A stretch of 64,000 nt of DNA from Clostridiales bacterium. GTDB taxonomy: Bacteria > Bacillota > Clostridia > Saccharofermentanales > Saccharofermentanaceae. Each line of letters opens with the position of its first letter. The stretch's first letter is position 1. The DNA is taken from contig JAFSPU010000009.1 of NCBI GenBank assembly GCA_017451265.1, forward strand, positions 1 to 64,000, given 5' to 3'. The position numbers and the translations under genes are program-made. Positions 22-38,523 of this stretch are shown here, one piece after another. The notes under the pieces were generated by a model that had not been told where the DNA came from, made no database searches, and saw only the letters and a list, made by a program, of their open reading frames with translations.

Positions 22-141
<120 letters not shown>

Positions 142-36819: not shown

Positions 36820-37752
36820 ATGGACGAAAAGTATTATGCTTCAGGCATGCCCCTTGATGAGCGCGAGGACCATCTGGTCAGAGCTGTTGCCCTTAATGGC
36901 AATGTTAAAGCTGTTGCCATAAAGACGACGGCAGCTGTCGAGAAGGCACGTGAGCTTCATAACACGACTAATGCGGCCACGGCCGCACTCGGTAGATTTA
37001 TGACAGGATCCCTGCTCATAGCCGAGAGCCTGAAGAATGATACTGACACCCAGACGACGATAATCAGGGCCGACGGTCCCATTAAGGGCATGACCTGTGT
37101 GTGTGACAGCAAAGGTCACGCCAGAGCCTATCCTTATGAAGGCAATGTTGAGACTACTTATTTAAGACCCGGTAAGATCAATGTGGGGGAGGCCGTGGGT
37201 AAGAACGGATCCCTGACCGTAATCCGCGATGTAGGCTTAAAGGAACCATATTCGGGTTCTGTCGAGCTTATCTCGGGAGAGATTGCCGAGGACTTTACTT
37301 ATTATCTTGCTTCATCCGAGCAGACACCTTCCGTGGTGGCTTTGGGAGTTCAGATCAAGGACGGACATGTCATCAATGCCGGCGGCATGATGATCCAGAT
37401 GATGCCTGGCTACACGGAAGAGGATCTTGATTACGTGGAGAAGAGGGCGAACGGAGGCTTCCCGGAGATTACTTTCCTTATGGAGGAAGGATTCTCTCCC
37501 GCGAAGATCCTCGATCTTTTTATGGGGGATCCGCAGATCACATACCTTAACGGCTACCCCGTAGGCTTCGAGTGCCCCTGCTCCAAGGAGAGGATGAGTG
37601 ACGGTCTGGCTACGATCGGACGCGCTGAACTCTATAAGATGATAAAAGATAATAAAGATATAGAAACTGTATGTCACTTCTGCGGAACAAAGTATACTTT
37701 TACCCCATCCGAACTGGAAAAAATCTTTGTGGATATCATGGGAAAAGACTGA
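36820..37752 (+). CDS. hslO: Redox-regulated chaperone Hsp33
   Basis: A 310-residue holdase chaperone activated by oxidative unfolding. The C-terminal zinc switch has all four cysteines: CPCSKERM and, about 30 residues later, CHFCGTKY. The N-terminal domain begins DHLVRAVALNGNVKAVAI. It acts in the cytosol under oxidative and heat stress. AAGGA lies 14 nt upstream, rather far. The gene stands alone before the S10 operon. Confidence 0.95.
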   Translation: MDEKYYASGMPLDEREDHLVRAVALNGNVKAVAIKTTAAVEKARELHNTTNAATAALGRFMTGSLLIAESLKNDTDTQTTIIRADGPIKGMTCVCDSKGHARAYPYEGNVETTYLRPGKINVGEAVGKNGSLTVIRDVGLKEPYSGSVELISGEIAEDFTYYLASSEQTPSVVALGVQIKDGHVINAGGMMIQMMPGYTEEDLDYVEKRANGGFPEITFLMEEGFSPAKILDLFMGDPQITYLNGYPVGFECPCSKERMSDGLATIGRAELYKMIKDNKDIETVCHFCGTKYTFTPSELEKIFVDIMGKD

Positions 37753-37797
37753 TTTTACTTGATTTTGCAGAAATTTTAAGATTTTTTCAAAAAACTA

Positions 37798-37826
37798 TTG
37801 CCAGAAAACCAAACCCGTAGTAAAAT
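37798..37826 (+). promoter_or_regulatory. Promoter of the S10 ribosomal superoperon
   Basis: TTGCCA (37798-37803), exactly 17 bp, TAAAAT (37821-37826). Transcription should start near 37832, giving a leader of about 270 nt before rpsJ. Confidence 0.8.
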
Positions 37827-37831
37827 TGCAC

Positions 37832-38092
37832 CCGTGCGACTTTAGAAGGCGCATGAAGCTTTGAAACCGGAGATTGCCGTTAAAGCTGTGAGCTGCACGG
37901 CCTGGCGGGTAACTTCGGCGGAGCAGTCGGGACGTGGATCCCGGCGATTCGGCTTAAAGCCGGCAGCGATTAACAAAGTAACCGTTGCCCGGGAGCCAAA
38001 GTGCCGTATAGATATGCGGTAACTGGAGATCCGGGTTTTTGAATGGAAGCTAAGGAAACGCCCGGCAAGGTTGAATAAAATACAGCATATTT
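37832..38092 (+). ncRNA. Structured 5' leader RNA of the S10 operon, unassigned
   Basis: GC-rich sequence between the promoter and the rpsJ ribosome site, with several local stems: TGCG/CGCA (37835-37853), AGCTTT/AAAGCT (37857-37887), CGGGA/TCCCG (37928-37943), CGGCT/AGCCG (37950-37962), CCGTAT/ATGCGG (38004-38019) and CCGGG/CCCGG (38031-38065). An intervening CCCGGG (37988-37993) could compete with the last stem. No coding frame fits. I do not recognise an RNase P, tmRNA, SRP, T-box or known riboswitch core. Autoregulation by an r-protein such as L4 is the obvious hypothesis. Confidence 0.65.
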
Positions 38093-38104
38093 GGAGGAAA
38101 AGAA

Positions 38105-38413
38105 ATGTCTAACCAGAAGTTGAGAATCAAGATCAAGGCTTATGATCACAAGCTCCTTGACGAGAGTGCAGAGTCCATCATTGACGCAGTTCAGAGAACA
38201 GGCGCTTCATACTCCGGACCTATCCCGCTCCCTACAGAGAAGGAGATCGTTACTATCTTAAGATCACCTCATAAGTACAAGGACTCTCGTGAGCAGTTCG
38301 AGCAGAGAACTCATAAGAGACTGATCGATGTATATACGTCCAACAACAAGACAGTTGAGGCGCTTCAGAAGCTTGACTTACCTGCAGGCGTTTCCATTGA
38401 GCTCAAGGCTTAA
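38105..38413 (+). CDS. rpsJ: Ribosomal protein S10
   Basis: A 102-residue small-subunit and antitermination (NusE) protein: [20 protein letters not shown] at the start and [20 protein letters not shown] inside. First gene of the superoperon; GGAGG lies 8 nt upstream. Confidence 0.98.
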
Positions 38414-38510
38414 TAGAAACTAATACAGGTATTTAATCGGTTCATGGAACTGCCAAGTCTGTGGGCCGAGGTCATGTTCGCACAAAGCGAGCGAACCAAT
38501 AACCTAAACA
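38414..38510 (+). promoter_or_regulatory. Structured rpsJ-rplC intergenic RNA element
   Basis: The 110-nt gap contains mutually exclusive pairings: GTTC/GAAC (38440-38450), GGTTC (38439-38443) with GAACC (38493-38497), and TTCGC (38477-38481) with GCGAA (38491-38495). Most other gaps in this operon are 10-25 nt. It may be an r-protein site or an mRNA processing site. Confidence 0.45.
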
Positions 38511-38523
38511 GGAGGAAAAGAGA

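Follow-up and report, generated by a model that had tools for sequence, protein, structure and literature searches.

The window analyzed here is the whole stretch of 64,000 nucleotides of contig JAFSPU010000009.1 from a Clostridiales bacterium. Within this window, rpsJ, the gene for ribosomal protein S10, is followed by ORFs that we take, based on their position, to be rplC, rplD, rplW, rplB and further genes of the S10 operon. The nearest upstream ORF (36820-37752) ends 45 nt before a sigma-70-type promoter, from which transcription would start near position 37833. A leader of approximately 270 nt lies between promoter and rpsJ (Table 1). This leader (37830-38104) is predicted to fold with -100.7 kcal/mol (z -3.23), which none of 200 shuffled sequences equaled, and the large structured RNA that the original prediction had placed between promoter and rpsJ is thereby confirmed. 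The local fold of P1 and P2 together has a z of -2.11 and was equaled by eight of 200 shuffles.

Table 1. Features of the rpsJ leader, in window coordinates.
Feature	Position	Strand	Basis
Sigma-70-type promoter TTGCCA-17-TAAAAT	37798..37826	+	10/12 consensus matches; -35 TTGCCA 37798-37803, spacer 17 nt, -10 TAAAAT 37821-37826
P0, 5' hairpin	37833..37855	+	z -2.86; 2/200 shuffles equal it
S10-Clostridia core RF03136 (P1 + P2)	37853..37947	+	35.4 bits, gathering score 35.1
P1	37867-37872 with 37913-37918	+	Covariation
P1b	37877-37880 with 37905-37908	+	Covariation
GCUGC, P1 apical loop	37892..37896	+	Complements 37963-37967 and partly 38083-38086; proposed pairing
P2 hairpin	37926..37945	+	Cells paired: 62.3% (87 leaders), 76.4% (22 untrained leaders)
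Mid-leader GCAGC	37963..37967	+	Complementarity to P1 loop
P4 hairpin, base GCCCGG/CCGGGU	37987..38036	+	Covariation; -22.9 kcal/mol, z -3.42; outside Rfam model
U-run after P4 (U5)	38036..38040	+	4 or 5 T in 78/87 leaders
P5 element GAAACGCCCGGCAAGGUUG	38055..38073	+	One match in window, 0 in shuffles; one in own genome
SD-proximal CAGC	38083..38086	+	Complementarity to P1 loop
Shine-Dalgarno (SD) GGAGG	38093..38097	+	By reading
rpsJ (S10)	38105..38413	+	ATG at 38105; ORF list and protein search

An Rfam search of the whole window gave five matches, of which RF03136 is the sole one within the leader, passing the gathering score by a margin of 0.3 bits. No other family was found in 37700-38130 at E up to 1. 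In agreement with the original prediction, the leader holds no match at or above the gathering score to an RNase P RNA, tmRNA, SRP RNA, T-box or riboswitch, nor did Rfam match an independently transcribed housekeeping RNA, an outcome that would speak against a leader. Through its core the leader is a member of RF03136, and because this match lies within it, the earlier label 'unassigned' was wrong for the 5' third. The RF03136 model consists of 81 positions and reaches P1 and P2 only, i.e., about 35% of the window leader; its 3' end is 157 nt away from the start of rpsJ, and its alignment treats the apical arm bearing GCUGC as an unmodeled insert. Common to model and window leader are the position before rpsJ and the helices P1 and P2, whereas the window leader adds the GCUGC apical arm, GCAGC, P4 with its U-run, P5 and CAGC. 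The RF03136 core is known; the larger 3' part, with its terminator-like hairpin and the conserved motifs near the SD, lies outside the family reference model. The family model thus spans about a third of the conserved RNA, and among 59 relative genomes it matched 21 and passed the cut-off in just six. Rfam scans of relatives covered 43 of the 205 loci at most (40 plus three, L053 being among the three; L192 contains rRNA), and RF03136 matched 17 of the 40 other rpsJ loci, with 111-252 nt between match and rpsJ in the 16 that are non-Bacilli.

Upstream regions of rpsJ were gathered by protein search, with a match in 90 of 99 genomes; two loci without an rpsJ start (L011, L168) were dropped. The core pattern was absent in four of the 88 unique leaders, three of which were restored by a looser pattern, and the exclusion of the remaining one (L016) left a main alignment of 87 leaders from the window's order. 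An alternative alignment (A2; 40/43 references) was not used, its P4 5' arm being misplaced. Covariation in relatives had been set beforehand as the test of the prediction, and it is present. For the helix set that we specified (P1, P1b, P2, P4 and the pairing between the P1 loop and the mid-leader segment), 84.7% of the cells in the 87 leaders are standard pairs, compared to 75.4 ± 0.4 in shuffled and at most 50.3 in slid helices, with a covariation score of 0.319, slid helices reaching 0.133 at most. P4 is paired in 96.4% of the cells and shows two-sided changes in four of its six pairs. Conservation extends well into the 3' part: of the columns that are invariant or 90% conserved, 25 lie up to position 90 and 31 beyond it, and the conserved 3' blocks comprise GCAGC, GCCC(A/G)G...C(U/C)GGGUUUU, UGG, the near-invariant GAAACGCCCGG (38055-38065), GUUG, CAGC and the SD.

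A full-length covariance model (R1) built from the 87 leaders has a match in 177 of the order's 188 genomes and in 104 of the 106 good ones, many of which supplied training rows. Across 80 untrained rpsJ loci it finds 22 full-length leaders at E <= 1e-9, every one ahead of rpsJ, including one (L052) from the window's own family; elsewhere in the window it gives two weak matches of 9.9 and 6.9 bits. In these 22 leaders, which were picked by E-value and whose alignment (A3) was fitted to R1, 90.9% of the cells are paired compared to 71.5 ± 1.3 for shuffled and at most 56.8 for slid helices, and the covariation score is 0.482 against at most 0.114 for slid helices. P4 is paired here in 96.9% of the cells, with letters at these positions in just 10-12 of the 22 rows. 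P1, P2 and P4 covary, also outside the training set, and the leader is a real, widely conserved S10-operon RNA. One genome (G026) carries two rpsJ contigs with differing leader types (L016 on C108, L151 on C94), where contamination is possible.

The U-run directly follows P4. The five positions after GGG contain five T in 50 of the 87 leaders, four in 28, three in seven and two in two. Scanning 37600-38200 for simple terminators (contiguous stem, loop of 3-8) gave no site, the stem of P4 being longer and interrupted. No consistent upstream partner that could act as an antiterminator of P4 was found in truncated folds of 48 leaders (best column mean probability 0.054). Because of these two negative results, P4 seems to resemble a pause or attenuation site assisted by a protein or by NusA more than it does a plain terminator. 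The original prediction had further proposed a competing CCCGGG pairing. The complementarity is indeed there, with GCCCGG at 37987-37992 and again within P5 at 38060-38065, and CCGGGU at 38031-38036, but pairing of the P5 copy with the 3' arm of P4 yields -10.5 kcal/mol compared to -22.9 kcal/mol for P4 itself and is no better than in shuffles (z -0.09), and we discarded this competition.

Since full-length folding yields P4 in 41 of 48 leaders and an antiterminator was not found, P4 could also act constitutively, without control by a protein, either as a partial terminator or pause setting the basal output of the operon or by releasing a small RNA of ~205 nt. This would leave the conserved core, P5 and CAGC unexplained, and we regard it as improbable. 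Beyond the window's order we inspected 28 loci chosen by hand, of which all but one carry P5, using single-base shuffles for comparison. A hairpin of -9.8 kcal/mol or lower ending at a U-run before P5 occurs in 19 of the 27 P5-bearing leaders, such that P4 and U-run are retained with different sequences, and in 14 of the 27 the hairpin is equaled by at most two of 40 shuffles. Two further observations count against an attenuation role of P4: most leaders have a U-run of only 4-5, and a good P4 is absent in eight of these 27 leaders, seven of which are presumably Lachnospiraceae-like.

The apical loop of P1 is complementary to two downstream segments, the mid-leader GCAGC and the CAGC close to the SD (tail). 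Column-based scoring of the loop-mid pairing gives 80.9% paired cells; because some clades have the mid segment out of register, alignment-free tests were used, in which the pairing of each leader with its own segment was compared to permuted partners. In 66 leaders dereplicated from 147, with kinship not removed, the own pairing is better than permuted for the mid segment (z -2.97, p 0.001) and for the tail (z -3.87, 0/4000 permutations), compared to z -0.94 (p 0.18) for a control segment from the P4 interior. The longest paired run in this set gives 0/4000 for mid and p 0.0005 for the tail, with p 0.93 and 0.19 for the controls, and at least five contiguous pairs are found in 61/66 leaders for mid and 49/66 for the tail against 27/66 and 23/66 for the controls. 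Such runs in the controls count against a two-partner reading, and so do the mid p-values in smaller sets, which are 0.068 (tail 0.004) for the first set of 48 leaders and 0.066 (tail 0.0035) for a stricter set of 41. By eye, changes in the loop track the mid segment in L177, L178, L012 and L258, and the tail only in L038, L043 and L181. Both pairings would be mutually exclusive because they use the same loop bases, and a switch of the P1 loop between two partners is possible on the basis of this complementarity.

The same loop-tail complementarity, stronger within than between leaders, can be accommodated by a purely translational mechanism in which the protein-bound core puts GCUGC of the P1 loop on the CAGC before the SD, P4 being a spacer. 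Such a mechanism would also suit the sole Bacilli locus matched by RF03136 (L119), which scores above the Rfam cut-off and where the core lies 15 nt from rpsJ, without space for P4, as well as the seven Lachnospiraceae-like leaders that lack a good P4. Yet, the loop-tail match in the window itself consists of four pairs only, and both the 4-5 T after P4 in 78 of 87 leaders and the covariation of P4 outside the order exceed what a spacer needs. We consider a purely translational leader rather unlikely.

The P5 element is nearly restricted to rpsJ among the searched genomes. The pattern RAHACRCCCGGNNNNGTTG occurs once in the own genome. Across 15 genomes of the order it occurs 11 times, nine of these at the rpsJ leader, and the reversed pattern does not occur in them. 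We dismissed P5 as a genomic repeat: a looser pattern has 25 matches in 14 genomes, several of them outside rpsJ in one type of coding frame, presumably that of EF-G-like GTPases, and four matches in one genome represent another repeat. Outside the order, 34 of 41 modules have all four pairs of a P5 hairpin (ACRC/GYGU), one pair being changed on both sides in three Oscillospiraceae loci. In the window's order, 85 of the 87 leaders show A-G at the outer pair, and because the stem is not kept there, this hairpin is not claimed for the window.

P5 overlaps an 11-residue frame (38044-38079) in the window, and according to the alignment many relatives have an NTG codon behind the U-run, which could point to attenuation by a leader peptide. 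The spacing from NTG to ACGCCC, however, is out of fixed frame (L018, L158), the frame of L004 ends after two codons, no SD precedes the frame, and what would be a Pro codon within P5 is variable in its second base. Based on spacing, stops and the missing SD, as read in the 87-leader alignment, we rejected such an upstream ORF; leader-peptide control is highly improbable.

The placement of P5-type sequences differs between loci. Among 80 wide loci, 19 have ACACCCGG followed by TTGCCA, and all 19 are Bacilli by name; ACACCCGG lies inside P1 in the nine of these that were read, the other ten being assigned by pattern alone, and one Bacilli locus (L074) is without ACACCCGG-TTGCCA. Of the 61 remaining loci, 41 match a stricter P5 pattern no more than 200 nt ahead of rpsJ, so that 20 loci have neither placement. 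Five loci (L053, L056, L057, L077, L086) carry ACRCCCGG elements on the upstream side of the S10 promoter, at a distance of 341-377 nt from rpsJ and doubled in L086, and lack a downstream P5 by pattern; L054 and L055 have both upstream and downstream placements. It looks as if the P5-type module were part of a single binding site and able to change its place, homology of the placements being suggested by 8-11 letters. Combining these placements with the two partners of the loop, one may envisage a two-part machine, in which the P1 loop would pick either the mid or the RBS-side partner and a protein-site module of the ACACCCGG type would have been relocated in evolution, sitting in P1 in Bacilli, after the core in many Clostridia and before the promoter in one group of Clostridia. 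We put this joint reading forward tentatively and hold it to be doubtful.

With a confidence slightly better than even, we propose that the leader is a cis-acting autoregulatory RNA that combines pausing or attenuation at P4 with control beside the SD. The RF03136 core (P1 and P2) would serve as putative site for a ribosomal protein of the S10 operon, and the 3' part as expression platform, with P4 and its U-run as the presumed pause or attenuation site and with P5 and the SD-proximal CAGC acting on initiation at rpsJ. Surplus free protein would bind the core, upon which the polymerase would be held or released at P4; on finished transcripts, the bound protein would presumably lower initiation. 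The Rfam margin of 0.3 bits, the mere six of 59 relatives above the cut-off and the lack of rRNA mimicry count against this proposal. Control of the S10 operon by uL4 is classical in E. coli. There, uL4 stabilizes a NusA-dependent pause at the attenuator hairpin of the S10 leader, leads to NusA-assisted termination and also controls translation (excerpts of PMC10931766). The E. coli leader described in these excerpts is likewise long and structured, belongs to the same operon and has a hairpin with U-run before the first gene. By analogy, the window leader likely works like this uL4-controlled system, and L4 would be the likeliest ligand.

Excerpts of PMC7247131 present the S10 r-leader of Firmicutes as already established, citing Yao 2007, and add many examples from Clostridia, which are discussed no further in those excerpts except in one figure. 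In the excerpts of the literature cited here there is no statement on the ligand or mode of action of the Firmicutes S10 leader, and no description of the 3' part was found in open-licence PMC text. The full-length model with its defined pieces makes both ligand and mode of action testable. A further candidate r-leader before rpsJ, RLC-47-1, is described from Peptostreptococcaceae, likewise Clostridia in the broad sense (excerpts of PMC11109978), the likeness being one of position. Within the window, the L10 leader (RF00557, 18393-18515, 53.7 bits) is likewise a ribosomal protein leader with a hairpin and U4 before the SD; belonging to another family and another operon, it serves as comparator only.

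Mimicry of rRNA sequence in the leader was also considered and rejected, with nothing beyond shuffles and shared words of at most 11 nt, some of them in flanks of rRNA loci. 23S and 16S rRNA, searched in the own assembly (69.5% complete), gave no match. A 5S rRNA is located at the start of the window (24-140, Rfam). Downstream of the first gene, the gap between rpsJ and rplC (38414-38523) folds with -31.0 kcal/mol (z -3.63, equaled by none of 200 shuffles) and contains two hairpins ahead of the SD of rplC.
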